64,000 bases of DNA. Source: Halomonas beimenensis. Lineage in GTDB: Bacteria; Pseudomonadota; Gammaproteobacteria; Pseudomonadales; Halomonadaceae. The stretch's first letter is position 1. The number at the start of each line of letters is the position of its first letter. Under the pieces are notes generated by a model, which saw only the letters and a list, made by a program, of their open reading frames with translations, was not told the DNA's origin and searched no databases. The position numbers and the translations under genes were made by a program. This document shows positions 228 through 17,948 of the stretch, piece by piece. The DNA is taken from assembly GCF_002549795.1 (NCBI RefSeq), contig NZ_CP021435.1, forward strand, positions 310,001-374,000, read 5' to 3'.

Positions 228-230
228 GGA

Positions 231-3744: not shown

Positions 3745-3806
3745 ACCAGATTGGTCATTTCTCTCTGATGGTCGCGTTGCCGCGGATCATGGGCCGCCCC
3801 TAAGCT
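3745..3806 (+). promoter_or_regulatory. Candidate promoter and operator of the ABC/hydroxyquinol operon
   Basis: The 319-bp gap 3558-3876 holds the glnE terminator and this region. ACCAGATTGGT (3745-3755) is an interrupted dyad (ACCA-GAT-TGGT). The ten bases ACCAGATTGG recur exactly at 17100-17109, upstream of the SDR gene of the same island. Downstream is a plausible sigma-70 promoter, TTGCCG (3777-3782), 18 bp, TAAGCT (3801-3806), which places the dyad just upstream of -35 where an activator would bind. The promoter is a pattern match only. The recurrence of the ten bases is directly seen. Confidence 0.5.
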
Positions 3807-3876
3807 GCGTGAAACCTGATGAGCTCTCCGGGGCGAATCGTTCCAAGCGACTACTACAACAAAGCAGGTGAGAGAA

Positions 3877-4815
3877 ATGATCTACAAGACAGCGCTAGCC
3901 ACCAGTGTGATGATGCTTTCCGCCGGCCTCGTCCAGGCCGAGGAGACCTACCGGATCGGCATCACCCAGAACAATGTCGGCGTCGACAGCTACCAGACCA
4001 CCTACGAAAGCGCCTTCGAGGCGGCTGCCGCCGGGATGGACAACGTCGAGGTCGTGGTGCTCGACGCCGGTGGCGATGTGGCCCGCCAGATCGGGCAGGT
4101 GCGCAACCTGGTTCAACAGCGGATGGATGCCATCATCATCTGGCCGACCAACGGCCAGGCGGTGATCCCGGCCATCCGCCAGGCCCACCAGTCGGGCATC
4201 CCCGTCGTGGTCACCAACTCCAAGATCGCCGAGGCCGGCCTCGATTACATCGCCGCCTTCTCCGGCCCCGACAACGTCCAGCAGGGCGCCTCCTCGGCCG
4301 AGATGATGTGCGAGGCCCTGAACGGGGAGGGGCAGATCGTCCAGATCGCCGGTCAACCCGGTTATACCACCGCCATGGAGCGCTCCCAGGGCTTCGAGGA
4401 CCGGCTGGCCGAGGCGTGTCCCGGCGTCGAGATCCTCGAGACCCAACCCGCGGACTGGAACCGCGAGAAGGCTCAGCGCGTCATGGAGAACTTCCTCACC
4501 AAGTACGACGACATCGACGGCGTCTACGCCGGCGACGACAACATGGGGGTCGGCGCCCTGAACGCGGCCAAGAGCGCCGGACGGGCGGACGAGATCGCCT
4601 TCATCGGGGCCACCAACTTCGCCGTGGGCTACGAGGCCATCGGCAACGGCGAATACTACGGCTCCATCTATCAGTCGCCGGTCGACGATGCCGAGGCGGC
4701 CCTGCAGACGGCCCTCGACATCCTGGCGGGCAAGGAGGTCCCGAAGATGAACTTCTTCGAGACGCCCAAGATCACCGCCGACAACCTGACCGAGTTCGAC
4801 AAGCCGGTGTTCTGA
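3877..4815 (+). CDS. Periplasmic substrate-binding protein, sugar-type (CUT2) ABC transporter
   Basis: This 312-residue protein has a Sec signal peptide (cleavage expected after VQA, about residue 21). It has the Peripla_BP_4 (RbsB-like) pattern: YRIGITQNN at the mature N-terminus, then DAGGD, a hinge-region repeat of IIIWPTNGQAVIPAI, and DGVYAGDDNMGVGAL. It would bind the imported solute in the periplasm and deliver it to the two downstream permeases. ATG 3877 is preferred over the in-frame GTG 3868 because AGGTGAG sits directly before it. The family carries pentoses, inositol and other polyols; nothing in the sequence fixes the ligand. The catabolic genes downstream argue for a cyclic or aromatic-precursor compound rather than ribose. 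Confidence 0.9.
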   Translation: MIYKTALATSVMMLSAGLVQAEETYRIGITQNNVGVDSYQTTYESAFEAAAAGMDNVEVVVLDAGGDVARQIGQVRNLVQQRMDAIIIWPTNGQAVIPAIRQAHQSGIPVVVTNSKIAEAGLDYIAAFSGPDNVQQGASSAEMMCEALNGEGQIVQIAGQPGYTTAMERSQGFEDRLAEACPGVEILETQPADWNREKAQRVMENFLTKYDDIDGVYAGDDNMGVGALNAAKSAGRADEIAFIGATNFAVGYEAIGNGEYYGSIYQSPVDDAEAALQTALDILAGKEVPKMNFFETPKITADNLTEFDKPVF

Positions 4816-4878
4816 CGACCCGCGCCCCGGGCGCAGGGTGTCGGACGACGCCATGCGCCTCGCCACTGACGATCCGTT

Positions 4879-4895
4879 GGCCATCGACGATGGCC
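4879..4895 (+). other. Intercistronic stem-loop between binding protein and permease genes
   Basis: GGCCATC-GAC-GATGGCC forms a 7-bp stem in the 180-bp spacer after the binding-protein gene; a GC-rich dyad (GCGCCC-C-GGGCGC) lies earlier in the same spacer. Hairpins at this place commonly stabilise the binding-protein mRNA or attenuate readthrough, so the binding protein outnumbers the membrane parts. The role here is inferred. Confidence 0.4.
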
Positions 4896-4995
4896 GCCAG
4901 GCCCCCCGGTCGCGTCCTTCGACGCGGCCGCGGCCCAGGCAGCGGACTCCTCGATGACCTTCGGAACAAGGTCGTTCCCCCTACAGGTGAGTGAC

Positions 4996-6006
4996 ATGGC
5001 TTCTGCAGAAGACGTCAAGCAAGGCTTCATGCTGAGCAAGAACCAGAGGGCCGGGCTCCTGAGCTTCCTCTCGGCCCAGGGTATCCTGGTGTTCTTCCTG
5101 ATCAGCATGCTGGCATTCTCGCTGTTCTCCGAACAGTTCCTCTCCCAGTCCAACATCATGACGGTGGTCCGTCAGGCCTCGATCATCGGCATCATCGCGG
5201 TCGGCGTGACCGTGGTGATCATCGGCGGCAACCTCGACCTGTCCGTGGGCTCGATGCTGTCCTTCTCCACGGTGCTGGTGGTCGACCTGCACGACAAGAT
5301 CGGGCCGACCAACGCCATCCTGGTGATGTTCGCCATGACCCTGCTGATCGGTGCCGTGAACGGTTTCCTGATCGGCTTCATGCGACTCAATTCCCTGATC
5401 GTCACCCTGGCCATGCTCTCGGCGATCCAGGGGCTGGTGCTGATCTACAGCGGCGGCCAGAACGTCGACATCGCCAACCAGGGGGATACCTGGTTCGCCT
5501 TCTTCGGCCGCGACTACGTCGCCGGGATCGCCGTGCCGGTACTGCTCTTCGGGCTGTTGGCGGTGATCGTCCAGGTGGTGATGTCCTTCACGGGCTACGG
5601 ACGGCGCATCTTCGCGATCGGCGGGAATCCCGTGGCGGCGGTCTACTCCGGCATCCGCAAGAACTGGTGCGTGTTCAGCACCTACCTGATCTCCGCCTTC
5701 TGCGTGGCCTGTGCCGCCCTGGTCCTGGGCTCCCGGGTGATGGGCTCCCAGAACAACGTGGGCCAAGGCTACGAGCTGCTGGTGCTGGCCGGCATCATCC
5801 TCGGCGGGACCAGCCTGCTGGGCGGGGCGGGCAGCATCTGGAAGACGGTGATCGGCGTGCTGATCCTGGGCTTCATCCAGAACGGCCTGCTGCTGATGGG
5901 CTACCCCTACTACGCCCAATGGCTGGTGACCTGGGTGATCATCATCCTGGCCGTCTGGCTGGACCTCGCCTACAAGCGCAAGCACCTGTTCACGACCCAT
6001 TCCTGA
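4996..6006 (+). CDS. ABC transporter permease, CUT2 (RbsC) family
   Basis: This 336-residue inner-membrane protein belongs to the BPD_transp_2 family. Many hydrophobic helices are visible. It carries the family's conserved block VVIIGGNLDLSVGS after the second to third helix, and a GAVNGFLIG loop. It forms the channel of the importer with the next gene. An upstream in-frame ATG exists at 4954, but ATG 4996 is chosen because AGGTGAG lies just before it and the extra 14 residues look like leader sequence. It is co-directional with its neighbours; the next gene begins about ten bases after its stop. Confidence 0.9.
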   Translation: MASAEDVKQGFMLSKNQRAGLLSFLSAQGILVFFLISMLAFSLFSEQFLSQSNIMTVVRQASIIGIIAVGVTVVIIGGNLDLSVGSMLSFSTVLVVDLHDKIGPTNAILVMFAMTLLIGAVNGFLIGFMRLNSLIVTLAMLSAIQGLVLIYSGGQNVDIANQGDTWFAFFGRDYVAGIAVPVLLFGLLAVIVQVVMSFTGYGRRIFAIGGNPVAAVYSGIRKNWCVFSTYLISAFCVACAALVLGSRVMGSQNNVGQGYELLVLAGIILGGTSLLGGAGSIWKTVIGVLILGFIQNGLLLMGYPYYAQWLVTWVIIILAVWLDLAYKRKHLFTTHS

Positions 6007-6016
6007 GGTGATCACC

Positions 6017-6976
6017 ATGACTACGCTCAAGAGTTTCCTGAGGGGCGGCGCCTTCATCCAGCCGATCTGGATCTTCGTGATCGCCCTGTTCGTCTTCTTC
6101 AGCCTGATGTCGGAGTACTTCCTGTCGCTGGGCAACATCAACAACATCCTGGTGCAGACCTCGACGATCGGTCTGCTCGCCCTGGGCATGACCTACGTGA
6201 TGATCAACGGCAACATCGATCTCTCGGTGGGCGCGACCCTGGGCCTGGCCGCCTCGCTGGCCGTCGGCCTTCAGCCGCTCGGCCTGACCGTGGCGGTGCT
6301 GGCCTCCCTGGCCGCCGGCATCGTGATCGGTGCCATCAATGGCCTGATCGTCTGGAAGACCGGAGTCAACGCCTTCATCGTCACCCTGGGCGCGATGATC
6401 GGGGTGCGCGGCTTGATCTTCGTCTACACCCAGGAGCAATCCTTCTACGCCAGCAACTTCGCCTTCGTGGATTTCGGCGCCAGCACCATCGGCCCCTTCC
6501 CGGTCCTGGCCATCATCTTCCTGGCCTGCACCCTGATCATGCACCTGGTGCTCAAGAAGACCGGCCACGGCCGCAACACCTTCGCCGTGGGCGGCAACCC
6601 CGAGGCGGCGATGGATGCGGGGATCCGCATCGGTCGCAACATGCTGATCAACTTCATCATCGTCGGCTTCTTCGCGGCCCTGGCCGGGGTCCTGCTGGCG
6701 ACCCAGATGGGCGCGTCAACGCCCAACCTGGGGCGCGACTACGAGCTCTGGACCATCACCGCGGTGGTGCTCGGCGGCACCAAGCTCACCGGGGGCCATG
6801 GCAGCATCTCCGGCACCCTGGGCGGCGTGCTGGCCATCGGCATCCTGCGCAACGGCATGAACATGATGCAGGTCCCTGCCTTCTACGTGCTGGTCATCCT
6901 CGGCGCCATCCTGATCACGGTGCTGATCATCGACCAGCGACTGAACGTTCCGACTGCCAAGGGGGTGCGCGCATGA
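6017..6976 (+). CDS. Second ABC transporter permease, CUT2 (RbsC) family
   Basis: This 319-residue polytopic membrane protein is paralogous to the gene before it. The family motif is MINGNIDLSVGATLG, followed by GAINGLIVWKTGVNAFIVTLG. Two different permeases in one CUT2 operon suggest a heterodimeric channel; classical RbsC is a homodimer. ATG 6017 is favoured over GTG 6008 because GAGGTGATC precedes it at the right distance. The stop overlaps the start of the ATPase gene (ATGA), suggesting translational coupling. Confidence 0.9.
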   Translation: MTTLKSFLRGGAFIQPIWIFVIALFVFFSLMSEYFLSLGNINNILVQTSTIGLLALGMTYVMINGNIDLSVGATLGLAASLAVGLQPLGLTVAVLASLAAGIVIGAINGLIVWKTGVNAFIVTLGAMIGVRGLIFVYTQEQSFYASNFAFVDFGASTIGPFPVLAIIFLACTLIMHLVLKKTGHGRNTFAVGGNPEAAMDAGIRIGRNMLINFIIVGFFAALAGVLLATQMGASTPNLGRDYELWTITAVVLGGTKLTGGHGSISGTLGGVLAIGILRNGMNMMQVPAFYVLVILGAILITVLIIDQRLNVPTAKGVRA

Positions 6977-8520
6977 CCGCCATGACGCAGAACGCCGAGG
7001 CCCGTCCCGTCCTCGAGCTGGTCGACATCACCAAGCGATTCCCCGGGGTCGTGGCCCTCAACAAGGTGAGCTTCGATGTCCGCCCGGGCGAAGTGCATGC
7101 CCTGCTGGGCGAGAACGGTGCCGGCAAGTCGACCCTGATGAAGGTGCTGGCCGGCAAGCACCGGCCCAACGGCGGCAAGATCATCCTCGAGGACGAGGAA
7201 CGGGTCTTCGACACGCCGAAAGAGGCCAAGCGCAGCGGCATCGTGCTGATCCACCAGGAGCAGTCCCTGGTCCCGGAAATGAGCGTGGCCGAGAACATCT
7301 TCCTCGGCAGCACGCCGCGCAAGTGGGGCAACCGGGTCGACTGGAAGCGGCTGCACGCCGACAGCACCGAGATCCTGGAACGGTTGAAGTGCGACTTCTC
7401 CTCCCGGGACCTGGTCTCCAGCCTGTCGATCGCCAAGAAGCAGATGGTGGAAATCGCCCGGGCCCTGGTGTTCACCCCCAAGATCGTGGTCTTCGACGAG
7501 CCGACCGCCTCGCTGACCGACCACGAGAAGCCGGTGCTCTACGACGTCATCCGCAACCTCCAGGCCCAGGGCGTGGGCATCGTCTACATCTCCCACCGCA
7601 TGGACGAGATCTTCCAGCTTTCCCAGCGCATCTCGGTGCTGCGTGACGGCGAGTACACCGGCACGGTGAATACCGCCGAGACCGACGAGGAGAGCGTCAC
7701 CCAGATGATGATCGGGCGCAGCCTCGAACTCGACCATGCCAGCAAGCCCAGCGAGTTCGGCGGCCCGATGCTCGAGGTGCGTGGGCTGACGGTCAAGGGA
7801 GTCTGCTCCGATGTCAGCTTCACGGTCCGCAAGGGCGAGATCGTCGGCATGTACGGCCTGGTGGGCGCCGGTCGCTCGGAGGTCGCCGAGACCATCTTCG
7901 GGTTGCGTCACTACACCGCCGGCGAGATCCGCCTGGACGGCCAGGTGGTCGACTTCCGCTCCACCCATGACGCCGTGACCAGCGGGATCGCCCTGGTGCC
8001 CGAGGACCGCAAGGACCAGGGGTTGGTGCTGGGGATGAACTGTCGCGACAACATGACCCTGGCCGGGCTCTCGACGGTCTCGTCATTCGGCTTCATGAAG
8101 TCCCGGGACGAACGCGCCGTCTATGACCGCTACCAGCAGGCCATGAAGATCAAGTCGCCGAGCTGGCGCCAGCGGGTGGGCAACCTCAGCGGCGGCAACC
8201 AGCAGAAGATCGTCATCGGCAAGTGGCTGCACACCCACCCCCGGCTGTTGATCCTCGACGAGCCGACCCGCGGCATCGATGTGGGCTCCAAGGCCGAGAT
8301 CCATGCCCTGATCAAGGAACTCGCCCGCTCCGGCTATGCCGTCCTGGTGATTTCCTCGGAGATGCCGGAAGTACTGGGCGTGAGCAATCGCATCATCGCC
8401 ATGTACGACGGCCGGGTGACGGCGGAGTTCGACGCCGACAACGTCGGCGAGGACCAGCTGGTGCAGGCGATCACCGGCATGACCGGCTCGACACCCCAGG
8501 CGGCCGGAGCGGTCGTCTAG
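6973..8520 (+). CDS. Sugar-type ABC transporter ATP-binding protein (double ATPase, RbsA/MglA type)
   Basis: At 515 residues this has the double-cassette size of CUT2 ATPases. The first cassette has Walker A GENGAGKST (about residues 46-54), a signature-like LSIAKKQMVEIARAL and Walker B FDEPTASLTDHE. The second cassette has a degenerate Walker A, GLVGAGRSEV, which is normal for this family, with signature LSGGNQQK and Walker B LDEPTRGIDVG. It energises import through the two permeases. Its start overlaps the previous stop by four bases. A hairpin follows before the catabolic genes. Confidence 0.95.
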   Translation: MTAMTQNAEARPVLELVDITKRFPGVVALNKVSFDVRPGEVHALLGENGAGKSTLMKVLAGKHRPNGGKIILEDEERVFDTPKEAKRSGIVLIHQEQSLVPEMSVAENIFLGSTPRKWGNRVDWKRLHADSTEILERLKCDFSSRDLVSSLSIAKKQMVEIARALVFTPKIVVFDEPTASLTDHEKPVLYDVIRNLQAQGVGIVYISHRMDEIFQLSQRISVLRDGEYTGTVNTAETDEESVTQMMIGRSLELDHASKPSEFGGPMLEVRGLTVKGVCSDVSFTVRKGEIVGMYGLVGAGRSEVAETIFGLRHYTAGEIRLDGQVVDFRSTHDAVTSGIALVPEDRKDQGLVLGMNCRDNMTLAGLSTVSSFGFMKSRDERAVYDRYQQAMKIKSPSWRQRVGNLSGGNQQKIVIGKWLHTHPRLLILDEPTRGIDVGSKAEIHALIKELARSGYAVLVISSEMPEVLGVSNRIIAMYDGRVTAEFDADNVGEDQLVQAITGMTGSTPQAAGAVV

Positions 8521-8528
8521 CCCATCGC

Positions 8529-8549
8529 GGCGCCCCGGTTCGGGGCGCC
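8529..8549 (+). terminator. Hairpin between transporter and catabolic genes
   Basis: GGCGCCCCG-GTT-CGGGGCGCC is a 9-bp perfect stem, 8 bases after the ATPase stop, with no T-run. It probably gives partial termination or mRNA processing between the transport and enzyme parts of one operon, since no separate promoter is obvious in the 59-bp spacer. Confidence 0.5.
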
Positions 8550-8579
8550 ACAGGCAACTGCCACGTCAGAGGAAACATC

Positions 8580-9656
8580 ATGCAACCCTTTGTCTATGAA
8601 GGCCTGCCATCTCGGGTGGTGTTCGGCCAGGGGACCCTTTCGCGCCTCGAGGAGGAACTCGAGCGACTCGGCTGCCGACGGGTGCTGGTGCTGTCCACGC
8701 CCCAGCAGCGCGCCCAGGCCGAGCAGGTGCTGGCCCAGGTGGGCGAACGCGGCGCCGGTCTCTTCGCCGAGGCGGCCATGCACACCCCGGTGGAGGTGAC
8801 CGAGCGCGCCCTGCGCCGCGTCGAGGCGCTCGGCGTCGACGCCACCGTCGCCATCGGCGGCGGCTCCACCATCGGGCTGGGCAAGGCCATCGCGCTGCGC
8901 ACCGACCTCCCCCAGGTCGCCATCCCCAGCACCTATGCCGGCTCGGAGATGACGCCGATCCTCGGCGAGACCCGGGACGGCATCAAGACCACCCAGCGCA
9001 CCCTGGCGGTGCTGCCCGAGACCGTGATCTACGACGTCGACCTGACCCTGACGCTGCCGGCCGGCCTCTCGGGGACCAGCGGCATCAACGCCATCGCCCA
9101 TGCCGTGGAGGCGCTCTACGCCCGGGATCGCAACCCCGTGATCTCGCTGATGGCCGAGGAGGGCATCGCGGCGCTGGCCAGGAGCCTGCCGGTGATCGCG
9201 GACACCCCGACCGATGCCGCGGCGCGCGCCGACGCCCTCTATGGCGCCTGGCTGTGCGGGGCCTGCCTGGGCTCGGTGGGCATGTCCCTGCACCACAAGC
9301 TCTGCCATACCCTGGGCGGCTCCTTCGACCTGCCTCACGCCGAGACCCACACCGTGGTGCTGCCCCATGCCACGGCCTACAACGCGCCCGCCGCCCCCGA
9401 GGCGATGTCACGCATCGCCAGGGCGCTGGGCGTGAAGGATGCCGCGGCCGGCCTGTTCGACCTCGCCGGCGCGGTGGGGGCACCCACCTCGCTGGGCACC
9501 CTGGGCTTCACCGCCGAGGACATCGACCGCGCCACCGAGATCGCCACCCGCAACCCCTACTGGAACCCGCGCGAGGTCGAGGCCGACGGCATTCGCCGCC
9601 TGCTGGCCGACGCCCAGGCCGGACGCCGTCCCGCCGGCGAGGAGGCCCCCTCATGA
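8580..9656 (+). CDS. Maleylacetate reductase (iron-alcohol-dehydrogenase superfamily)
   Basis: This 358-residue enzyme reduces maleylacetate to 3-oxoadipate with NAD(P)H, the step after ring cleavage of hydroxyquinol. Features typical of maleylacetate reductases are the N-terminal FVYEGLPSRVVFGQGT, the nucleotide-binding AIGGGSTIGLGKAIAL and the PSTYAGSEMTPILGE block, then SLHHKLCHTLGG. ATG 8580 is supported by AGAGGAAA upstream; the longer open frame upstream of it is antisense-like and overlaps the ATPase gene. The next gene starts four bases before this stop. The hydroxyquinol dioxygenase three genes downstream supports the assignment. Confidence 0.92.
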   Translation: MQPFVYEGLPSRVVFGQGTLSRLEEELERLGCRRVLVLSTPQQRAQAEQVLAQVGERGAGLFAEAAMHTPVEVTERALRRVEALGVDATVAIGGGSTIGLGKAIALRTDLPQVAIPSTYAGSEMTPILGETRDGIKTTQRTLAVLPETVIYDVDLTLTLPAGLSGTSGINAIAHAVEALYARDRNPVISLMAEEGIAALARSLPVIADTPTDAAARADALYGAWLCGACLGSVGMSLHHKLCHTLGGSFDLPHAETHTVVLPHATAYNAPAAPEAMSRIARALGVKDAAAGLFDLAGAVGAPTSLGTLGFTAEDIDRATEIATRNPYWNPREVEADGIRRLLADAQAGRRPAGEEAPS

Positions 9657-11020
9657 GCATCCTCTTCACGAACGCCACCGTCCTCACCCAGGATCCCGAC
9701 CTCGGCGACCTGACCGATGGCCAGGTGCTGGTCGAGGGCAGCCGGATCCTGGCCGTCGGCCACGATCTGGATGCCGAGGGGGCCGAGATCGTCGACTGCC
9801 GGGGCGGCATCCTGATCCCGGGACTGGTCAACGCCCACCTGCATACCTGGCAGACCGGGCTGCGCGGCGTGGCCGCCAACTGGACCCTGCTGGAGTACTT
9901 TCGGCACGTTCACCGTGGCCTGGCGACGCTGTTCGCCCCGGACGACATCCGCATCGCCACCCGCATGGGGGCCCTGAACCAGCTCGACTGCGGGACCACC
10001 ACCCTGGGTGACTGGTGTCACAACAACCCGACGCCGGCGCATACCGACGCGGCGGTGGAGGGGCTCCTTTCGTCGGGCATCCGTGCCGTCTTCCTGCACG
10101 GCTCGCCCAAGCCGGCGCCCAAGCCGGGTCAGCCGCACTTCAGCGAGATCCCGCATCCGCGCGGCGAGGTGGAGCGGCTGCTGGCCGGACCGCTGGGGGA
10201 GCCCGACGGCCGGGTGACCCTGGGCCTGGCCATCCTGGGGCCGCACTACTCGACCCTGGAGGTGACCCTCCACGACTTCGCCCTGGCCAAGGAATTCGGC
10301 CTGATCGCCTCCATGCACCAGGGCGGCGGCGAGCCGGTGACCCCCGGAGGCTGGGACGAGATCGAGGCCCGGGGGTTGCTGGGGCCAGACATCAACATCG
10401 TCCATGGCCATGGCCTCTCCGAGGACCAGCTGGCGCGCTTCTGCGCCCGGGGCGTGACCTTCTCGATCGCCCCCGAGAACGAGATGACCCAGGGCCATGG
10501 CTTTCCCGTCACCGGCCTGGTGCGACGCCATGGCGGCGTGATCTCGCTGGGCGTGGACCTGGAGTCGGTGCTCTCCGGCGACATGTTCTCGGTGGCGCGC
10601 ATGGCCCTCGGCATGCAGCGTGCCCTGGATAACGACGCCTCGCGCCGGGCCCAGGGACGGATTCCCGAGACCTCCACGATCACCACCCGGGAAGCCCTGG
10701 GCTGGATCACCCTGGACGGCGCCCGGGCGCTGGGCCTCGACGATCGGATCGGCAGCCTGACGCCGGGCAAGCAGGCCGACCTGGTCCTGCTGGATAGCGG
10801 TCGCCTGAACATGCAGCCGGTCAGCGACCCCGTCTCCACCGTGGTCATGCAGGCCAGCCTGGCCAACGTGGACAGCGTCATGGTGGCCGGCGAGTTCCGC
10901 AAGCGGGCAGGACGCCTGCTGGAGGCGACCGACGACGGCATCGCCGAGCTCGCCGCGTCCGGCCACCGCATCTATCGCGAGCTCAAGGCCCGTGAACAAC
11001 AAGAGGAGACCGCATCATGA
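9653..11020 (+). CDS. Amidohydrolase, TrzA/AtzA-like subgroup
   Basis: This 455-residue member of the metal-dependent amidohydrolase superfamily resembles the aminohydrolases that strip amino or chloro groups from heterocycles (TrzA, AtzA, cytosine/guanine deaminase types). Metal-ligand motifs are NAHLHTWQ (HxH at the end of strand 1), SMHQGGGE, IVHGHGLSED and the late Asp in SLGVDLESV. A C-terminal composite domain (GSLTPGKQADLVLLD) is typical. It would hydrolyse a C-N or similar bond of the imported compound or an intermediate. The substrate cannot be read from sequence. The start overlaps maleylacetate reductase by four bases, and its stop overlaps the next start. Confidence 0.88.
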   Translation: MSILFTNATVLTQDPDLGDLTDGQVLVEGSRILAVGHDLDAEGAEIVDCRGGILIPGLVNAHLHTWQTGLRGVAANWTLLEYFRHVHRGLATLFAPDDIRIATRMGALNQLDCGTTTLGDWCHNNPTPAHTDAAVEGLLSSGIRAVFLHGSPKPAPKPGQPHFSEIPHPRGEVERLLAGPLGEPDGRVTLGLAILGPHYSTLEVTLHDFALAKEFGLIASMHQGGGEPVTPGGWDEIEARGLLGPDINIVHGHGLSEDQLARFCARGVTFSIAPENEMTQGHGFPVTGLVRRHGGVISLGVDLESVLSGDMFSVARMALGMQRALDNDASRRAQGRIPETSTITTREALGWITLDGARALGLDDRIGSLTPGKQADLVLLDSGRLNMQPVSDPVSTVVMQASLANVDSVMVAGEFRKRAGRLLEATDDGIAELAASGHRIYRELKAREQQEETAS

Positions 11021-11934
11021 CGACTTCGACCCCCGTGGCCTGGGTCGGCCTCGGCAAGCTGGGGCTGCCCATGGCGAGGCGCATCGTGGCGGGTGGCCTG
11101 GCCGTCAGTGGCTTCGACCTGAGCGACGAGCGCCTGGCGCTGGCCCGGGAGGCCGGCATCGAGCCCCGCGCCGACCTGGGTGAGGCCGTCGAGGGCTGTC
11201 CGCTGGTCTTCGTCTCGATCCCCGATGATCGTGCCTTGACGGCCCTTTGCCTGACCGAGGGCGGACTGCTCGAGCGGATGGCCTCCGGCAGCGTGCTCAT
11301 CGAGACCAGCACCGTCAGCGTCGAGGTCTCGGCGCGGGTGGCCGAGGCGGCCGCCGAGCGCGGCATCGCCTACCTGCGCTGTCCGGTGTCGGGCAATCCC
11401 GTGGCCGCCGAGGCCGGCACCCTGTCGGCCATGGTCTCCGGCCCCCGGGAGGCCCTGGAGCGGGCCATGCCGGCCCTGCGCCACTTCACCAAGGCGCAGT
11501 ACTGGCTGGGCGAGGATGAGCAGGCGCGCTTCGCCAAGCTGGCCATCAACCTGATGATCGCGGTCAGTGCCGGGATGCTGGGCGAGGCCCTGACCCTGGC
11601 GCGCAAGGGCAACATCGGCTGGGACGCGATGCTCGAGCTGGTCGGCGATAGCGCCGTGGGCTCGCCCATGGTGCAGTACAAGGTGCCCCCGCTGCGGGAT
11701 CGCGACTTCACCTCGACCTTCTCCGCCGCCCAGATGGCCAAGGATCTCGACCTGATCCTCGGCTGCGCCCACGGCGCCGGAGTGCATGCCCCGCTCGCCG
11801 CGCAGATGCGCGAGGCCTATGGCGCCCTGATCGCCACCGGCCACGGCGAAGACGATTACATCGCCACCGTCCACCACACCGAGCGGCTCTCCGGGCTGCC
11901 CGATACCGTGCCGGTCGCCGGCACCGAGGGATGA
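11017..11934 (+). CDS. NAD(P)-dependent oxidoreductase, 3-hydroxyisobutyrate/6-phosphogluconate dehydrogenase superfamily
   Basis: This 305-residue beta-hydroxyacid dehydrogenase has an N-terminal Rossmann fold (WVGLGKLGLPMARR), the substrate-site segment CPVSGNPVAAEAGTL in place of the usual DAPVSGG, and the catalytic lysine region KLAINLMI near residue 174. The C-terminal helical domain is complete. It probably oxidises or reduces a beta-hydroxy acid or aldehyde made in the same pathway. It starts inside the previous stop (ATGA) and is four bases from the dioxygenase gene. The exact substrate is unknown. Confidence 0.85.
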   Translation: MTTSTPVAWVGLGKLGLPMARRIVAGGLAVSGFDLSDERLALAREAGIEPRADLGEAVEGCPLVFVSIPDDRALTALCLTEGGLLERMASGSVLIETSTVSVEVSARVAEAAAERGIAYLRCPVSGNPVAAEAGTLSAMVSGPREALERAMPALRHFTKAQYWLGEDEQARFAKLAINLMIAVSAGMLGEALTLARKGNIGWDAMLELVGDSAVGSPMVQYKVPPLRDRDFTSTFSAAQMAKDLDLILGCAHGAGVHAPLAAQMREAYGALIATGHGEDDYIATVHHTERLSGLPDTVPVAGTEG

Positions 11935-11938
11935 CACC

Positions 11939-12799
11939 ATGCGAAACCTGACCGCCGAGAACATCACCGACGCCGTGATCGAGCAGTTCGCCGGCTGTGA
12001 CGATGCCCGGCTGAAGACCCTGCTGAACAGCCTGGTCACCCACCTTCACGCCTTCCTCCGTGACGTGGAGCCGACGGAGGCGGAGTGGGGGCAGGCCATC
12101 GACTTCCTGACCCGCACCGGCCAGATGTGCGACGACCAGCGCCAGGAGTTCATCCTGCTCTCCGACACCCTGGGGGTGACCATGCTGGTGGATGCGATCA
12201 ACCATCGCGTCACGAGTCCCGAGGTCTCCGAGAGCACCGTCCTCGGCCCCTTCTACGTGCCCGATCCGCCCGCGGCGGAGCAGGGCCAGGCCATCGACGG
12301 AGACGTGGAGGGTGAGCCGCTGTTCGTCGAGGGCCGGGTGCACGATGAGCATGGCGAGCCGCTGGCCGGCGTGACCATCGATGTCTGGCAGTCCGACGGC
12401 GAGGGCTTCTACGACGTGCAGAAGGAGATCGAGGGCGCCTCGCTGCGGGCTCGTTTCACCACCGACGACCAGGGGCGCTATGCCTTCTGGACCGTGACCC
12501 CGTCGGCCTATCCGATCCCCTCCGATGGCCCGGTCGGCCAGATGCTGGAGGCCACCGGCCGCCATCCCTACCGGCCGGCGCACGTGCACTTCATGCTGAT
12601 GGCCGAGGGCTTCGAGACCCTGGTGACCCAGGTGTTCGCCGAGGGGGACGACTACCTGGATTCCGACGCGGTGTTCGGGGTCAAGGACTCCCTGGTCACC
12701 GAGTTCCGCCTCCAGGAGCCCGGCCGGGCCCCGGACGGCCGCGTCCTGGACATCCCCTACCGCCATCTTTGCTACGACTTCGGCCTCCAGCCTCGCTGA
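11939..12799 (+). CDS. Hydroxyquinol 1,2-dioxygenase (intradiol)
   Basis: This 286-residue non-haem Fe(III) dioxygenase cleaves 1,2,4-trihydroxybenzene between the ortho hydroxyls to give maleylacetate. The N-terminal helical cap (ITDAVIEQFAGC...DEAEW-like, first 90 residues) is the Dioxygenase_N domain of catechol/hydroxyquinol enzymes. Iron ligands expected are Tyr in LGPFYVPD, Tyr in PSAYPIPSDGPVG, and the two His in RPAHVHFM. Pairing with maleylacetate reductase in one operon favours hydroxyquinol over catechol as the substrate. A chlorinated or otherwise substituted hydroxyquinol is not excluded. Confidence 0.9.
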   Translation: MRNLTAENITDAVIEQFAGCDDARLKTLLNSLVTHLHAFLRDVEPTEAEWGQAIDFLTRTGQMCDDQRQEFILLSDTLGVTMLVDAINHRVTSPEVSESTVLGPFYVPDPPAAEQGQAIDGDVEGEPLFVEGRVHDEHGEPLAGVTIDVWQSDGEGFYDVQKEIEGASLRARFTTDDQGRYAFWTVTPSAYPIPSDGPVGQMLEATGRHPYRPAHVHFMLMAEGFETLVTQVFAEGDDYLDSDAVFGVKDSLVTEFRLQEPGRAPDGRVLDIPYRHLCYDFGLQPR

Positions 12800-12851
12800 G
12801 CCGGCCGACCAAGCGATCCCGACACTCCCGACCCGCTAGAGAGGTAACGAC

Positions 12852-13442
12852 ATGAACGCCATCGACCAGAACGCCATCCAGACCCTGTTCACCGAGGCGC
12901 GCACCCACAACGTCTGGCTGGACCGCGACGTCAGCGAGCAGACCCTGCGCGAGCTCTATCACCTGATGCACTTCGGCCCCACGTCGATGAACTGCCAGCC
13001 CCTTCGCGTGCTCTTCCTGAAGAGCCAGGAAGCCAAGGAGCGCCTCAAGCCGGCACTGCTTCCCGGTAACCAGGAGAAGACCATGCAGGCGCCGGTGGTG
13101 GCCGTGCTGGGCTACGACACCGAGTTCTACGAGCACCTCCCGCGCATGTTTTCCCACAACAAGGAGGCCAAGTCGCTGTTCGAGGGCAAGCCGGACTTCA
13201 TCAACGCCACGGCCTTTCGCAACAGCTCCATCCAGGGGGGGTATTTCATCCTGGCCGCTCGCGCTCTGGGACTGAGTGCCGGGCCGATGTCCGGCTTCAA
13301 CAACGCCGCCGTGGACGAGGCCTTCTTCCCCGATGGCAAGGTGAAGAGCAACTTCCTGTGCAACCTGGGCTATGGCGATGCCTCGGCGCTCTTCCCGCGC
13401 CAGGATCGGTTCGCCTTCGACGAGGTCTGTGACGTTCTCTGA
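12852..13442 (+). CDS. Nitroreductase-family flavoprotein, TcpB/HadB/RutE type (candidate hydroxybenzoquinone reductase)
   Basis: This 196-residue FMN protein has the HadB/RutE pattern: AIQTLFTEARTHNVW, GPTSMNCQPLRVLFL (FMN phosphate and ring contact region), QAPVVAVLGYD, NSSIQGGYFILAARALGL and the C-terminal FLCNLGYGD. RutE is called a malonic semialdehyde reductase in uracil breakdown. TcpB and HadB of chlorophenol operons sit, as here, beside hydroxyquinol dioxygenase and maleylacetate reductase and are thought to reduce quinones. Context therefore favours reduction of hydroxybenzoquinone to hydroxyquinol. Shine-Dalgarno GAGAGG lies upstream. A strong hairpin follows. Confidence 0.82.
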   Translation: MNAIDQNAIQTLFTEARTHNVWLDRDVSEQTLRELYHLMHFGPTSMNCQPLRVLFLKSQEAKERLKPALLPGNQEKTMQAPVVAVLGYDTEFYEHLPRMFSHNKEAKSLFEGKPDFINATAFRNSSIQGGYFILAARALGLSAGPMSGFNNAAVDEAFFPDGKVKSNFLCNLGYGDASALFPRQDRFAFDEVCDVL

Positions 13443-13457
13443 TCGTCGTCATCCATC

Positions 13458-13483
13458 GCGGGGCCGTGCACGCACGGCCCCGC
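13458..13483 (+). terminator. Strong hairpin after the TcpB/RutE-like gene
   Basis: GCGGGGCCGTGC and its complement GCACGGCCCCGC form a 12-bp stem around AC. No T-run follows, so it may act as a partial terminator or 3' stabiliser before the exporter gene 22 bases away. Confidence 0.6.
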
Positions 13484-13505
13484 TGTCGTCAGGGGGCGGT
13501 TGCGC

Positions 13506-14252
13506 ATGATCCTCGATCCTTCCTTGCTGGCCCTGCTGGTGGCGGGCGTGCTGCTCACCGGCATCTCCAAGTCGGGCTTAGCCGGCGGCGTGGGGGTGGT
13601 GGCGGTGCCGCTGATCTCCCTGCAGGCGAGCCCGGCCTTCGCGGTGGCCGTGATGCTGCCGTTGCTGATCGTGATGGACGCCTTCAGCCTGCGCGCCTGG
13701 TGGCGCCATCGCGTGGACGGCCTGCTGTGGCTGATGTTCCCGGCGGCGGTGCTCGGGGTCGGCGTCGGCTACCTGACCTATGGCCGCTGGGACGACGACC
13801 TCCTCAAGACCCTGCTGGGCGTCTTCTCCATCGTCTTCGCGCTGTGGGGGCTGCTCAAGCCGTTCCGTGGCTACCTCCTGCCGGGGTGGGTCGGGGCGCT
13901 GTGCGGTGGCATCGGCGGCTTCACCAGCTTCATCGCTCACGCCGGCGGGCCCCCGCTGAACTTCTACCTGCTGCAGGAACGGCTGACCAAGGAGCAGTTC
14001 CTGGGCACCGCGGTGGTCTTCCTCGCCGCCATCAACCTGGTCAAGCTGGTGCCCTACGGCCTGCTCGGCCTGCTGGTGGTCGACAACCTGATGGTGGCGC
14101 TGGCCCTGGTGCCGGTGGCCTGGCTGGGAGTGCGCCTGGGGCTGGTCATCCAGCGCCACCTCGACGGCGAGAAGTTCTTCCGGATCATCCTGCTGTTGCT
14201 GCTGGCGCTGGGGGGGCGGCTGACGCTGGACGGCAGCGGCTGGCTGACCTGA
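13506..14252 (+). CDS. TauE/SafE family membrane transporter
   Basis: This is a 248-residue hydrophobic protein with about eight predicted membrane helices in two similar halves, typical of the TauE/SafE (sulfite or small-anion exporter) family. The N-terminal LLTGISKSGLAGGVGVVAVPL and the second-half GGIGGFTSFIAHAGGPPLNFYLL are the family's repeated glycine-rich motifs. ATG 13506 is chosen over TTG 13500 because AGGGGGCGG precedes it. Position in the catabolic operon suggests it moves a product or by-product, possibly an organic or sulfur-containing anion. The cargo is unknown. Confidence 0.85.
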   Translation: MILDPSLLALLVAGVLLTGISKSGLAGGVGVVAVPLISLQASPAFAVAVMLPLLIVMDAFSLRAWWRHRVDGLLWLMFPAAVLGVGVGYLTYGRWDDDLLKTLLGVFSIVFALWGLLKPFRGYLLPGWVGALCGGIGGFTSFIAHAGGPPLNFYLLQERLTKEQFLGTAVVFLAAINLVKLVPYGLLGLLVVDNLMVALALVPVAWLGVRLGLVIQRHLDGEKFFRIILLLLLALGGRLTLDGSGWLT

Positions 14253-14322
14253 GCCCGGGTTTGCCGCCGCGATCACGGTGGCGCTATCTTGGAGCCGTGT
14301 CCGACCCCGAGGCGAGGCGAGC

Positions 14323-16092
14323 ATGACCGACCACTCCGACGAGAGCCATCCGGAGGGCCCTTACGATCGGCTGACCCAGACGCCGATGTCGAAACTGTCC
14401 AGCACGGAGTTCGCCCGCTTCCTCGACTTCGTCGAGCGCTTCGAGGACGAGACCGAGCAGAGCCTCTCCATGGCCAACGGCTATCGGGAGATGCGCATGA
14501 TGATCCACCTGATGCGCAATCACCTGGCCGGGCGCCTGACCACCCCCACGTCCCTGGCGGAGGCCTCGGGGCTGTCCTACGGCACCGCCAAGCGCGGCAT
14601 CGAGAGCATCCGGCGGCGCGGCCTGGTCATCGCCCGCCCTCGAACCCGCACCGGCAAGACGGTCTCGCTGCATCCCTCCTCCGAGATGATCGCCGAGTGG
14701 GAGGCCTACGCGAACCGCATCAAGGCCCTCCTGGGCCCGCTGTTCGGCGTGGATCCCGCCTCGGAGCTGGGCAGCCGGATCTTCCTCGGCGCCGAGGCGG
14801 GGCGGGTGATCTCGCCGCCCGCCGTGCTCTCGGCACGCCTCGAGATGAAGGGGGGGCTGCGGACGCTGATCCATGCCGACCCCACCTTCACGGCGATGCA
14901 CAACCTCAAGCGGCAGCTGGAGTCGATCTTCGGCCTCGAGATCCACAACACGGCGAAGTCGATCGACGGCCTGCTCGAGGAGATCCTCGACAACGCGCGC
15001 CGGGCGACCTCGCGCTACGACCTGGTGGCCTGCGACCTGCCGTGGTTCGGTGAGCTGGCCGCGAAGGGCGTCATCATGCCGCTCGATCCCCTGATCGAGC
15101 GCGACGGGCAGGACCTGTCCGACTTCCACCCGGTCGCCATCCGGAGTGCCCGCCATGCCGGGCGGCAGTACGGTATCCCGTTGCAGACGACGCCGGAGCT
15201 GCTCTGCTACCGGCGAGACCTGCTGGAGCAGGCCCGGCTCGATCCCCCGACCACCACCGATGGCCTGATCGAGGCCGCCCGGCGCCTCCACGATCCGGCG
15301 AAGGGGCGCTACGGGATCGCCTGGAACGCAGCCCGTGGCACGCCCCTGGGGCATACCTTCAGTTTCCTCATGGCCAAGTTCGGCCAGCCGATCGTCAACC
15401 TCAGCCCCACCGATGGCGGCTTCGACTTCGAGCAGGCGACCGGCGAGGCCCTGCGCCCGATGTTCCTGTCGGACGCGGCCTACCGCGCCTGCGAATACAT
15501 GCTGGATATCCTGAAATTCTCGCCGCCCAACATCCTCCACATGGCCTGGTACGAGCGGGCCAAGTCCTATGCCGCCGGCGAATCCTGCCTGGCCTACTGC
15601 TACACCCTGCTGGCGCCGCTGATCGAGTTCGACCGGAAATCGCCGGCCTGGGGCAACACCGGCTATCTGCCGCATCCCACCGGTCAGTACGGCCGCACCA
15701 TCACCCCGATCGGGGGCTATGCGCTGGCGATTCCGGCCAACCTGTCCGAGGAGCGGGTCGAGGCCGCCTGGACGGCCCTGCGCCACCTGACCTCGGCCAA
15801 CATGTCGAAGCTCTACATCATGAACGGCAGCCTGGTGACGCCGCGCTTCAGCGTCAGCCAGGATCCCGAGGTCGCGGCGCTGTCCCCCCTGATCGGGATC
15901 GTGGACGACATGGCTCGCCGGGACATCCTCCAGGCCTGGCCGCGTCCGCCCGTGCCGGGGATCGCCGAGCTGATCGATATCGCCGGGAACGAGATCTTCG
16001 AGGTGCTGGACGGGCGGCGATCCATCAAGAAGGCCCTGTCCCGAGCTCAGGACAGGGCCGACCAGGCCATGCGGGCGCGAGGGGCGTACTGA
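14323..16092 (+). CDS. Transcriptional regulator: N-terminal DNA-binding region fused to an extracellular-solute-binding-protein domain
   Basis: This 589-residue protein has no signal peptide. Residues 20-115 are helical and basic, with a winged-helix-like stretch (LTTPTSLAEASGLSYGTAKR...RRRGLVIARPRT). Residues about 150-550 have the order and motifs of a family 1/8 solute-binding protein: KRQLESIFGLEI, DLVACDLPWFGELAAKGVIMPLD, YGIPLQTTPELLCYRRDLLE, and ITPIGGYALAIPAN. A cytoplasmic solute-binding fold as sensor is known from SgrR, but with a different binding-protein family. It probably senses the imported compound or a metabolite and controls this island. ATG 14323 follows GAGGCGAG; an upstream in-frame ATG (14278) is less likely. 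Confidence 0.8.
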   Translation: MTDHSDESHPEGPYDRLTQTPMSKLSSTEFARFLDFVERFEDETEQSLSMANGYREMRMMIHLMRNHLAGRLTTPTSLAEASGLSYGTAKRGIESIRRRGLVIARPRTRTGKTVSLHPSSEMIAEWEAYANRIKALLGPLFGVDPASELGSRIFLGAEAGRVISPPAVLSARLEMKGGLRTLIHADPTFTAMHNLKRQLESIFGLEIHNTAKSIDGLLEEILDNARRATSRYDLVACDLPWFGELAAKGVIMPLDPLIERDGQDLSDFHPVAIRSARHAGRQYGIPLQTTPELLCYRRDLLEQARLDPPTTTDGLIEAARRLHDPAKGRYGIAWNAARGTPLGHTFSFLMAKFGQPIVNLSPTDGGFDFEQATGEALRPMFLSDAAYRACEYMLDILKFSPPNILHMAWYERAKSYAAGESCLAYCYTLLAPLIEFDRKSPAWGNTGYLPHPTGQYGRTITPIGGYALAIPANLSEERVEAAWTALRHLTSANMSKLYIMNGSLVTPRFSVSQDPEVAALSPLIGIVDDMARRDILQAWPRPPVPGIAELIDIAGNEIFEVLDGRRSIKKALSRAQDRADQAMRARGAY

Positions 16093-16107
16093 CCCCCCGT
16101 CCTCCCT

Positions 16108-16911
16108 TCACTGCATGACCATGCCACCGTCGATCATCAGCAGTTGACCGGTCATGTAATCCGATTCCTGGCTGGCCAGGAAGGCGGCGGTGCCGACCAC
16201 GTCATCCGGATAGGAGTAGCGCTTCATCAGGATCATGCTATCGGCCAGTTGATCCATCGACTGCCCCTGCTTGTCGAACTTGCCGATCTCGACCAGGTCC
16301 TTGTCGAGCTGCTCCCAGAGTTCGGTGCGCACCACGCCGGGGCCGTAGCCATTGACGGTGATGTTGTGATCGACCAGGGCCTTGGCACCGCCGTTGATCA
16401 TGGCGAGGATCGCGTGCTTGCTGCAGGCGTAGGGCACCACGTCGTCGAAGGCCTGGCGCGACAGGATCGAGCCGACGTTGATGATCTTGTAGGGGCCGTT
16501 CTCCTTGCCCTGGTCGATCATCTGCTTGGCCGCTTCCTGCATCCCGATCAGGCAGCCCAGGGCATTGACGTCCATGATCTGGTGCCAGTTCTCCTCGGTG
16601 ATGTCGAGGAACATCAGCGGCTTGTTGATGCCGGCATTGTTCAGCATCACGTTCAGGCTGCCGAAGGCATCCACGGTGGCCTGCACGGCGGCCTTCATCT
16701 GCTCGCGGTCGGTCACGTCCAGGCGACAGGCGATCGCCTCGCCGCCCTTCTCGCGGATGCGGGCCACGACCTCCTCGCAGCCTTCCAGGTTGAGGTCCGC
16801 GACGCAGACCTTGGCGCCCTGGGCGGCATAGTATTCGGCGACGGCGGCGCCCATGCCGCGGGCGGCCCCGGTGATCAAGCAATGTTTTCCAGCCAGACGA
16901 GTCTTGTCCAT
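16108..16911 (-). CDS. Short-chain dehydrogenase/reductase, 2,3-butanediol/sorbitol dehydrogenase-like
   Basis: This 267-residue classical SDR has the cofactor motif ITGAARGMGAA, NNAG, the catalytic Ser region NVGSILS, YACSK (YxxxK) and the C-terminal SDYMTGQLLMIDGGM. The segment NITVNGYGPGVVRTELWEQLD closely follows meso-2,3-butanediol/acetoin and polyol dehydrogenases, so a vicinal diol or polyol substrate is likely. The start at 16911 has AGGTGACAC before it; a longer frame running upstream enters the repeat element and is rejected. It converges on the regulator gene with 15 bases between, and its upstream region shares a 10-bp motif with the ABC operon promoter, linking it to this island. 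Confidence 0.88.
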   Translation of the reverse strand: MDKTRLAGKHCLITGAARGMGAAVAEYYAAQGAKVCVADLNLEGCEEVVARIREKGGEAIACRLDVTDREQMKAAVQATVDAFGSLNVMLNNAGINKPLMFLDITEENWHQIMDVNALGCLIGMQEAAKQMIDQGKENGPYKIINVGSILSRQAFDDVVPYACSKHAILAMINGGAKALVDHNITVNGYGPGVVRTELWEQLDKDLVEIGKFDKQGQSMDQLADSMILMKRYSYPDDVVGTAAFLASQESDYMTGQLLMIDGGMVMQ

Positions 16912-17136: not shown

Positions 17137-17399
17137 CAGGGCTTTCGCAGTTGGATCTGGCGAGGAGTGCCGGGGACAGGTCGAAGAGGGGGGCCTACGC
17201 CAGGGGTGAGGAGGATTCCTCCGAACGGGCTGGCCACGGATGGCCAGCACCGGTCCTGCAAAGTGGAGCAGGATGCGAGAGCGCCGCAGGGCGTCGGTAG
17301 CGCCCAGGGAGGGGGTCACAGCGCCCCCTCGTCGGTCCGGCGCTCCGGGACCTGTCGACGGATCAGCCCCGAGCTATAACGCTAACTGCGATATCCCTG
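17137..17399 (-). repeat. MITE-like inverted-repeat element, copy 2 (263 bp, inverted)
   Basis: This is the reverse complement of the 231-493 element at nearly every position and has the same length. Its ends are GGGCTTTCGCAGT (17139-17151) and ACTGCGATATCCC (17385-17397), so its terminal repeats carry mismatches. The internal hairpin of copy 1 is kept (CTGGCCA...TGGCCAG). It sits between the divergent SDR and aroQ genes. The remaining parts of this 599-bp gap (16912-17136 and 17400-17510) hold the shared 10-bp motif and the aroQ leader. Confidence 0.85.
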
Positions 17400-17458
17400 G
17401 CCCTGTTCCCCCTCGGCTCGACGCCGGCACAGGGGTCTGGGAACATGAGGCGTCAACC

Positions 17459-17481
17459 GACAGGGGCGGGATGCCCCTGTC
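17459..17481 (+). other. Stem-loop in the aroQ leader
   Basis: GACAGGGGC-GGGAT-GCCCCTGTC is a perfect 9-bp stem, 29 bases upstream of the aroQ start. No leader peptide or T-run is evident, so its role (mRNA stability, attenuation, or a terminator for transcription leaving the repeat) is open. Confidence 0.45.
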
Positions 17482-17510
17482 TCACGGCGGTCCTCTCCGG
17501 AGATAGCACG

Positions 17511-17948
17511 ATGAGTCAAGCCAAGGTCCTGGTCCTGCACGGCCCCAACCTCAACCTGCTGGGCACTCGCCAGCCCGCGGTCTACGGTCACGAGACCCTG
17601 GAGGACATCGACGACGCCCTGCGCGAACGGGCCGCCCGCGGCGGCTGGGAGATCCTCTGTCGGCAGAGCAACCACGAGGGCGAGCTGATCGACGCCATCC
17701 ATGCCGCGAGACTCGACGGCACCGCGGCGATCATCATCAACCCCGCCGCCTACACCCATACCTCGGTGGCCATCCTCGATGCCCTCAATGCCTTCGACGG
17801 CCGGGTCATCGAGGTGCATCTCTCCAACGTCCACAAGCGCGAGGCCTTCCGTCATCACTCCTATGTCTCGCTGCGCGCCGACGGGGTGATCGCCGGCCTC
17901 GGCAGCCAGGGCTACCTGGCCGCCCTGGACGCGGTGATGGCCGGCTGA
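17511..17948 (+). CDS. aroQ: Type II 3-dehydroquinate dehydratase
   Basis: This 145-residue cytosolic enzyme is the usual length of the dodecameric type II dehydroquinase that makes 3-dehydroshikimate in the shikimate pathway. Diagnostic motifs are the N-terminal [16 protein letters not shown] (catalytic Tyr in the flexible loop), [23 protein letters not shown] and [16 protein letters not shown] with the catalytic His. The start ATG 17511 follows GGAGATAG. In many proteobacteria aroQ precedes accBC; here it stands alone, after a repeat element. Confidence 0.96.

Follow-up and report, generated by a model that had tools for sequence, protein, structure and literature searches.

A conserved hydroxyquinol gene cluster of Halomonas beimenensis without a clustered hydroxylase, and its possible role in the aromatization of an alicyclic polyol

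The usual interpretation of a hydroxyquinol pathway is that it serves to dispose of phenols, nitrophenols, and chlorophenols. In the tcp/had/pnp operons for chlorophenols and nitrophenols (as an example, on plasmid 2 of Variovorax RA8), the genes for hydroxyquinol 1,2-dioxygenase (HQD), maleylacetate reductase (MAR), and a RutE/TcpB-type reductase are accompanied by those for an HpaB/TcpA-type hydroxylase (the HpaB type was seen in RA8) and a flavin reductase. HQD and MAR also occur in the gamma-resorcylate/resorcinol cluster of Rhizobium anhuiense, where the hydroxylase role is ascribed to an acyl-CoA-dehydrogenase-family protein and where a gamma-resorcylate decarboxylase and a flavin reductase are encoded as well. 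In this work, we analyzed a stretch of 64,000 nucleotides of the genome of Halomonas beimenensis (NZ_CP021435.1, positions 310,001 to 374,000), hereafter referred to as the window, which harbors a block of 12 genes at 3868-16911 (positions within the window), flanked by glnE (567-3557) and aroQ (17445-17948). The cluster has HQD and MAR in common with both systems and a RutE-type flavoprotein in common with the tcp/had/pnp operons; unlike the latter, it contains neither hydroxylase type, and it encodes a CUT2-type importer, a short-chain dehydrogenase/reductase (SDR), a 3-hydroxyisobutyrate dehydrogenase (HIBADH)-like protein, and an amidohydrolase.

The quinate/shikimate route, in which aromatization is carried out by quinate dehydrogenase, dehydroquinase, and dehydroshikimate dehydratase, shares the logic proposed here for the window cluster, i.e., a ring alcohol is oxidized, water is eliminated, and the ring is aromatized without O2. 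In the window, however, the product would be hydroxyquinol and the cluster is without a dehydroquinase of its own; neither a catabolic dehydroquinase nor a dehydroshikimate-dehydratase-like gene, as a quinate-type route requires, was found in it. The IolG/IolM/IolN inositol pathway of Thermotoga likewise combines serial cyclitol dehydrogenation with a sugar-type importer, but there the ring is opened by hydrolysis, and the pathway is not known to involve HQD. No described upper pathway for the gene set of the window was found in the open-access literature searched, which leaves uncontradicted the same statement made in an earlier reading of the DNA without database searches (the sequence-only reading).

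We propose, with a probability of about 0.45, that the cluster aromatizes an alicyclic polyol (cyclitol) to hydroxyquinol instead of hydroxylating an aromatic ring. If this is true, organisms annotated from their genomes as degraders of aromatic compounds or xenobiotics would instead consume naturally occurring polyols, and the amidohydrolase superfamily would gain a new reaction. With their repeated co-occurrence (20/20 fetched loci of the genus and 66/80 loci outside it), the genes involved form a concrete set amenable to testing.

A conserved unit and its lower pathway

On the basis of sequence comparison, the identities of HQD (11939-12799, plus strand) and MAR (8580-9656, plus strand) can be considered firm, since both match solved enzymes of the same activity far better than neighboring families, and the lower pathway is known. 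The best relatives of HQD in the PDB are 8r2x (6-chlorohydroxyquinol 1,2-dioxygenase, 283.7 bits), 1tmx (hydroxyquinol 1,2-dioxygenase, 280.4 bits), and 3n9t (PnpC, 261.4 bits), whereas the best catechol 1,2-dioxygenase reached 141.4 bits, so that the protein lies nearer to the characterized HQDs. It possesses the motifs GFYD (156), YPIP (191), and H-x-H (215-217), whose two tyrosines and two histidines we take to be the ligands of a non-heme Fe(III). The nearest characterized relatives of MAR are 3hl0 (440.8 bits) and 3w5s (434.9 bits). Both assignments had been made in the sequence-only reading and are upheld, and the genes that it named are present as open reading frames (ORFs). The RutE-type flavoprotein (12852-13442, plus strand; PRK05365, 294 bits against a cut-off of 152; IstO 7vqk, 130.6 bits) formally bears the name malonic semialdehyde reductase; its context and the analogy with TcpB suggest that it might act as a hydroxybenzoquinone reductase. 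Three further Dioxygenase_N (PF04444) proteins are encoded in the same genome (G000:C1, 595699, 1581686, and 1588384).

The conservation of the cluster was assessed in 90 genomes of the genus, i.e., that of H. beimenensis (a single contig of 4.05 Mb) and 89 others. An HQD of 77-83% identity was found in 22 of the 89; 20 of these loci were fetched (the contigs of the other two measure 3.6 and 9.7 kb), and the gene order is identical in all of them, with 18 holding the whole set and the remaining ones being cut by contig ends, either inside the gene of the substrate-binding protein (SBP) at the contig start (L032) or inside the RutE gene at the contig end (L046). In the 67 genomes without this HQD, the spacing between glnE and aroQ is 200 bases or less in 45 cases. 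Of the 23 genomes with HQD (own genome included), 19 have glnE and aroQ on a shared contig; 14 of these carry HQD in the space separating the two genes, 3 carry it to one side at a distance of up to 14 kb, and the last 2 have it on a different contig. The block thus occupies a single chromosomal glnE-aroQ junction, which is closed in 45/67 genomes lacking it; the 12 genes are gained or lost together and form a coherent and conserved whole. A further 11 of the 67 genomes without this HQD have 3.9-13.3 kb between glnE and aroQ on the same contig, as in an insertion hotspot.

Seven hydroxylase queries (five FAD_binding_3, one HpaB-type, and one acyl-CoA-dehydrogenase-type; E <= 1e-20) matched none of the 20 genus loci, which supports, for this lineage, the earlier claim of a hydroxyquinol pathway served by a dedicated importer and lacking a clustered hydroxylase. 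The absence of a TcpA/HadA-type hydroxylase, also claimed from the sequence, was confirmed by the fact that the HpaB-type query was among those without a match in the 20 loci and that HpaB_N (PF11794) exceeded its cut-off in none of the 90 genomes, own included; sub-threshold matches of this domain occur in 5 of the 90, H. beimenensis not being one of them. In addition, the FAD_binding_3 hydroxylase of an outside relative (L117, see below) had no counterpart in the 90 genomes at E <= 1e-40, in a search without a positive control.

The amidohydrolase and its partners outside the genus

The amidohydrolase (9653-11020, plus strand) belongs to the PRK08204 subfamily (564.9 bits, cut-off 391) and has an AtzA/TrzA-type fold. 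The AlphaFold model, obtained from 15 sequences (pLDDT 88, pTM 0.90), best matched AtzA, TrzN, and isocytosine deaminase (query TM about 0.8). The metal ligands H62, H64, H222, H251, and D302 are retained, giving the HxH, H, H, D pattern of the AtzA/TrzA (COG0402-type) fold; the third residue after H222, assigned by the sequence motif rather than by structure superposition, is a glycine (G225) in 15/15 aligned relatives. At the equivalent position, deaminases of this fold carry a glutamate (H-x-x-E motif). The replacement of Glu with Gly appears to weaken the case for a simple amidine deamination and would leave room for lyase chemistry, and a lyase-type role of the protein is what we infer. 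The hydrolytic deamination suggested in the sequence-only reading is thus not supported, on indirect evidence, even though the fold on which it relied is the right one.

Two more amidohydrolase matches exist in the H. beimenensis genome, with 29% and 31% identity, the second being partial. In a family-level sample, the amidohydrolase is present in 28/201 genomes and 4/24 genera, and all 15 genus members possessing it (own included) are also on the genus HQD list; in a phylum-level sample (E <= 1e-120), it is present in 8/398 genomes, own included, the other seven belonging to one family. Acidobacterial relatives with 63-66% identity were found in L058, L061, and L066, and that of L061 is surrounded by glycosyltransferase, methyltransferase, asparagine synthase, and carbamoyltransferase genes, so that the family may have another, perhaps biosynthetic, use.

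The nearest cluster outside the genus is located on a plasmid of Skermanella rosea, where 11 of the 12 families are present, TauE being the missing one. This plasmid harbors genes for the fusion regulator, the SBP, the SDR, both permeases, the ATPase, a ThuA protein, the amidohydrolase, the HIBADH-like protein, HQD, RutE, and MAR. A gene for a 3-oxoadipate:acetyl-CoA acetyltransferase, scoring above the cut-off of its model, is also present and gives an independent indication that the product is 3-oxoadipate. The wider comparison was carried out on the best 80 of the 572 amidohydrolase matches listed in a contig scan; most of the 80 belong to Bradyrhizobium, so that the counts are not independent. 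Amidohydrolase and HQD occur together in 66 of the 80. The partners most often found in these 66 loci are the HIBADH-like protein (63), YciI (61), MAR, the CUT2 ATPase, and a GlcD-like flavoprotein (60 each), and Dabb (53); SDR (5), FMN reductase (4), a MocA-type dehydrogenase (3), and RutE (2) are rare, and HpaB-type hydroxylases absent. The amidohydrolase and HIBADH-like genes are directly adjacent in 68/80 loci. In 14/80 no HQD is present in the stretch examined; six of these have less than 5 kb on one side, and the eight true exceptions, with a 10-kb range on both sides, are L061, L088, L107, L111, L121, L126, L127, and L128. The amidohydrolase-HIBADH pair is retained in 6 of the 14; L111, L121, and L128 have it without a nearby HQD, and the surroundings of the L121 pair include homogentisate dioxygenase and molybdenum-cofactor genes.

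An alcohol-capable oxidoreductase recurs in these clusters, although its family varies: an SDR in the window and in Skermanella, the GlcD-like flavoprotein in 60/66, the MocA type in 3/66, and a GMC oxidoreductase in Paraburkholderia D15 and on Cupriavidus necator pBB2. The latter combines a 42% identical amidohydrolase with MAR, a HIBADH-like protein, and HQD; in Variovorax VAI-C, the amidohydrolase lies beside a GMC gene and no HQD is present in the stretch. Loci of the Mesorhizobium/Kaistia type (L109, L119, L122, and L072) have no MAR match, and an FAA-hydrolase-family protein, a MocA-type dehydrogenase, and YciI lie beside malonyl-CoA synthetase/decarboxylase genes (these family calls were made on L109 only, and the L122 stretch does not include HQD); the malonate genes might point to a C3 product.

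A phylogenetic tree of HQD, constructed on 33 hand-picked sequences, some with long branches, joins the window protein with that of Skermanella (100/100). The amidohydrolase-linked HQDs are scattered over it, with five label changes, at least four of which are forced by supported branches. In this small sample, functional coupling would fit the pattern better than one inherited neighborhood. The HQD contexts of Microvirga, Skermanella mucosa, C. basilensis, and Novosphingobium revealed nothing informative on the substrate.

A possible route to hydroxyquinol and its rivals

In the proposed route, the CUT2 transporter would import a polyhydroxylated alicyclic compound, e.g., a deoxyinositol, a cyclohexanetetrol, or an inositol isomer, and the SDR would oxidize a ring alcohol to a ketone, thus activating the adjacent hydroxyls for elimination. 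The amidohydrolase-fold metalloenzyme lacking the glutamate would then remove a leaving group (water, possibly an amine), the HIBADH-like enzyme would perform a second redox step, and the product would tautomerize to hydroxyquinol, which the RutE-type flavoprotein would keep reduced by converting the autoxidized quinone back. HQD would open the ring to maleylacetate, and MAR would yield 3-oxoadipate. The substrate class and the order of these steps are putative, and the roles of importer, SDR, and HIBADH-like protein are suggested by family membership. The importer set is complete, with an SBP of the Peripla_BP_4 family (3868-4815, plus strand; 195.7 bits; nearest solved chain 4rsm, 132.5 bits) reaching no NCBIfam equivalog cut-off, permease 1 (4996-6006, plus strand), AraH/RbsC-like with every match below equivalog cut-offs, permease 2 (6008-6976, plus strand), AraH-like with 208 bits against a cut-off of 378, and a double ATPase (6973-8520, plus strand), AraG/RbsA-like with 555 bits against cut-offs of 689/745. 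The SDR (16108-16911, minus strand) is a probable alcohol dehydrogenase, with 3wye (179.5 bits) and the sorbitol dehydrogenase 4e6p (154.1 bits) among its relatives and a Y161-x3-K165 motif; it does not reach the cut-off of any of the 25 top-ranking NCBIfam models listed. The HIBADH/GarR-like protein (11017-11934, plus strand), a member of the beta-hydroxyacid dehydrogenase family, has NAD_binding_2 and NAD_binding_11 domains and a K174-x3-N178 motif, and remains under all equivalog cut-offs.

By formula, C6H6O3 is reached from inositol by the loss of 3 H2O (three dehydrations and no net oxidation), from quercitol by the loss of 2H and 2 H2O (one oxidation and two dehydrations), and from cyclohexanetetrol by the loss of 4H and 1 H2O. 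The last compound fits most simply, because two dehydrogenases and one lyase-like enzyme correspond to two oxidations and one dehydration. 1,4/2,5-Cyclohexanetetrol was putatively identified by nuclear magnetic resonance in the microalga Isochrysis galbana (PMC7998644). Such phytoplankton cyclitols are only candidate substrates. The more specific version of the proposal, in which the Glu-less AtzA-fold enzyme would act as a metal-dependent lyase, dehydrating a cyclic ketone in the course of a hydroxylase-free cyclitol aromatization, with an algal osmolyte such as cyclohexanetetrol as the possible substrate in the genus, is to be regarded as doubtful. Two other substrates were considered and set aside. 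A mycosporine-like amino acid would not, on chemical grounds, give the 1,2,4 oxygen pattern without a hydroxylase. As for a sulfonated substrate, hinted at by TauE, neither the Skermanella cluster nor any of the 66 relatives had a TauE match under the threshold applied; Pfam identified TauE-family genes in L117, and Sinorhizobium americanum also has a match (31%).

Several HQD clusters elsewhere that lack a recognized hydroxylase contain alcohol oxidoreductases and, in some cases, dehydratase-family proteins, which indirectly supports the idea, already put forward from the sequence, of a dehydrogenation and aromatization of a cyclitol-like compound. Sinorhizobium meliloti Rm41 has HQD and MAR, no amidohydrolase, and no recognized hydroxylase. 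Its type II dehydroquinase exceeds three subfamily cut-offs (167.4 vs. 169.85 bits for the equivalog model), its enolase-superfamily protein is nearest to talarate/galactarate dehydratase (122.9 bits, under the cut-off of 500), and its PRK12843 flavoprotein (795 bits, cut-off 758) has 3-ketosteroid and 4-oxocyclohexene-carboxylate (ChcC) dehydrogenases as next relatives; for its TIM-barrel protein, the two matches obtained from the PDB were weak and carry no functional name. This protein is shared by S. americanum and Caballeronia NK8, where GMC or SDR/aldo-keto reductase oxidoreductases are present. In Paraburkholderia largidicola, HQD and MAR are found with a CUT2 importer, an IolM-like dehydrogenase, a HIBADH-like protein, and YciI, and a dehydroquinase lies about 8 kb away; no amidohydrolase match was found in the stretch, whose edge cuts an FAD-dependent oxidoreductase. 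A common logic can be read into these designs, i.e., the formation of a ring ketone followed by the elimination of water. On Sinorhizobium and Caballeronia plasmids (L136, L139, and L135), HQD is accompanied by a TIM-barrel protein resembling sugar-phosphate isomerases, and the two from Sinorhizobium additionally encode a type II dehydroquinase and an enolase-superfamily protein. None of the 20 genus loci was matched by the TIM-barrel query from Rm41; the dehydroquinase query matched 12/20 with 48-51% identity, at the aroQ position, and among the loci compared outside the genus neither query hit one with the amidohydrolase. The aroQ gene of the window, a type II dehydroquinase, was itself considered as the pathway dehydratase, since dehydroquinases occur in other HQD clusters. 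It was rejected and regarded as a housekeeping gene outside the cluster, because it is the sole copy in the genome and adjoins glnE in 45/67 genomes where the cluster is absent; aroQ is present in 90/90 genomes of the genus.

Several points weigh against the cyclitol reading. That the enzymes of the cluster would act on a cyclitol is a proposal, membership in families as broad as those of the importer and the SDR does not single out a substrate, and the window cluster contains no classical dehydratase; structurally, the amidohydrolase is nearest to dechlorinases and deaminases (AtzA, TrzN, and isocytosine deaminase). The presence of RutE in only 2/66 relatives implies that the quinone-reductase step is not general, and the clustering of labels on the HQD tree is weak (47/500 shuffles were as low). 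The IolM-like match of P. largidicola (201 bits) is far under its cut-off of 450, and in the incomplete gene tables of PLSDB "no hydroxylase" means the lack of both an annotated one and a hit with any of the seven queries. The remaining points concern FAD_binding_3 hydroxylases and lend themselves to the strongest rival, according to which the hydroxylase acts in trans: a substrate that is aromatic or is turned into a phenol would be hydroxylated to hydroxyquinol by a monooxygenase encoded elsewhere, the amidohydrolase, SDR, and HIBADH-like enzyme having first trimmed a side chain. The gene-order survey for a co-occurring hydroxylase, advised in the sequence-only reading, gave none in the 20 genus loci but a PRK06126-type FAD_binding_3 hydroxylase within about 10 kb of at least 14 of the 66 outside relatives. 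In L117 it lies inside the same operon and in 13 Bradyrhizobium loci on the other strand, and 14 is a lower bound, as 9 of these hydroxylases sit at the very edge of the DNA stretch. Two such hydroxylases lie beside the Bosea vaviloviae cluster, and one immediately precedes the distant amidohydrolase relatives of Burkholderia anthina and Shinella. The H. beimenensis genome has three long FAD_binding_3 matches, two of them adjacent (UbiH-like and UbiH/UbiF-family) and the third at genome position 75906, about 240 kb away; the latter is nearest to 3-hydroxybenzoate 6-monooxygenase (260.9 bits, cut-off 459), equivalog cut-offs not being a fair test for proteins scored on the matched stretch only (343 aa at 75906). 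On the other side stand the failure of all seven queries in the 20 genus loci, the absence from the 90 genomes of an L117-type hydroxylase (within the limit of that search given above) and of HpaB_N over its cut-off, and the fact that a sugar-type importer is unusual for phenols. Taken together, a hydroxylase in trans seems somewhat unlikely.

A hydrolytic deamination, in which an aminocyclitol, or an aminophenol via its quinone imine, would lose ammonia through the amidohydrolase to give hydroxybenzoquinone, reduced in turn by the RutE-type enzyme, accords with the AtzA/TrzA fold and with the RutE- or FMN-reductase-type proteins found with several clusters. It is made improbable by the glycine at the deaminase Glu position in 15/15 sequences, by the rarity of RutE (2/66) and FMN reductase (4/66) among the relatives, and by the lack of a transaminase among the 12 conserved genes. 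It might also be argued that a hydroxyquinol operon and a separate polyol operon are chance neighbors in the window, since gaps of 59, 52, 57, and 70 bases and the divergent SDR gene leave room for several transcripts. This is very improbable: MAR, amidohydrolase, and HIBADH-like genes overlap by 4 bases, at a single junction the block is either wholly there or wholly missing, and distant lineages show these partners again in other arrangements, with at least four forced changes on the HQD tree.

Remaining genes and surroundings of the cluster

Four-base overlaps, which the sequence-only reading had noticed between several genes, were seen at three junctions (permease 2/ATPase, MAR/amidohydrolase, and amidohydrolase/HIBADH), and the remaining intergenic gaps measure 1-138 bases with the starts of the ORF list. 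Alternative starts exist for the SBP (GTG at 3868 in the ORF list, or possibly ATG at 3877) and for permease 1 (possibly ATG at 4996; 4954 in the ORF list). As for the strand, the earlier description is correct from the importer up to the TauE/SafE-family exporter (13500-14252, plus strand; PF01925, 99 bits), but the SDR gene lies on the minus strand and a regulator-like gene (14323-16092, plus strand, ATG start) had gone unmentioned. The latter encodes a putative one-component regulator, in which a weak MarR-like winged helix-turn-helix is fused to SBP_bac_1 (79.7 bits). MarR_2 is sub-threshold in the window protein (E 0.08) and, with E 0.00033, below the cut-off in the Skermanella ortholog; the nearest solved chain is 5iai, a sugar ABC transporter protein (116.5 bits). 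The gene is linked to the cluster in 19/20 genus loci, the remaining one being cut by a contig end, and in Skermanella.

Scans of the window with Rfam and for tRNAs gave nothing, and the promoter/terminator scan gave four terminator-like sites (3.9 expected from shuffles) and no promoter-like sites. The GC content of the cluster is 67.4%, compared to 70.5% in the rest of the window. Two copies of a 266-nt repeat, 93% complementary and located at 228-493 (minus strand) and 17137-17402 (plus strand), are inverted around glnE and the cluster; they belong to a dispersed family with 52 match rows in the H. beimenensis genome, many of them partial.

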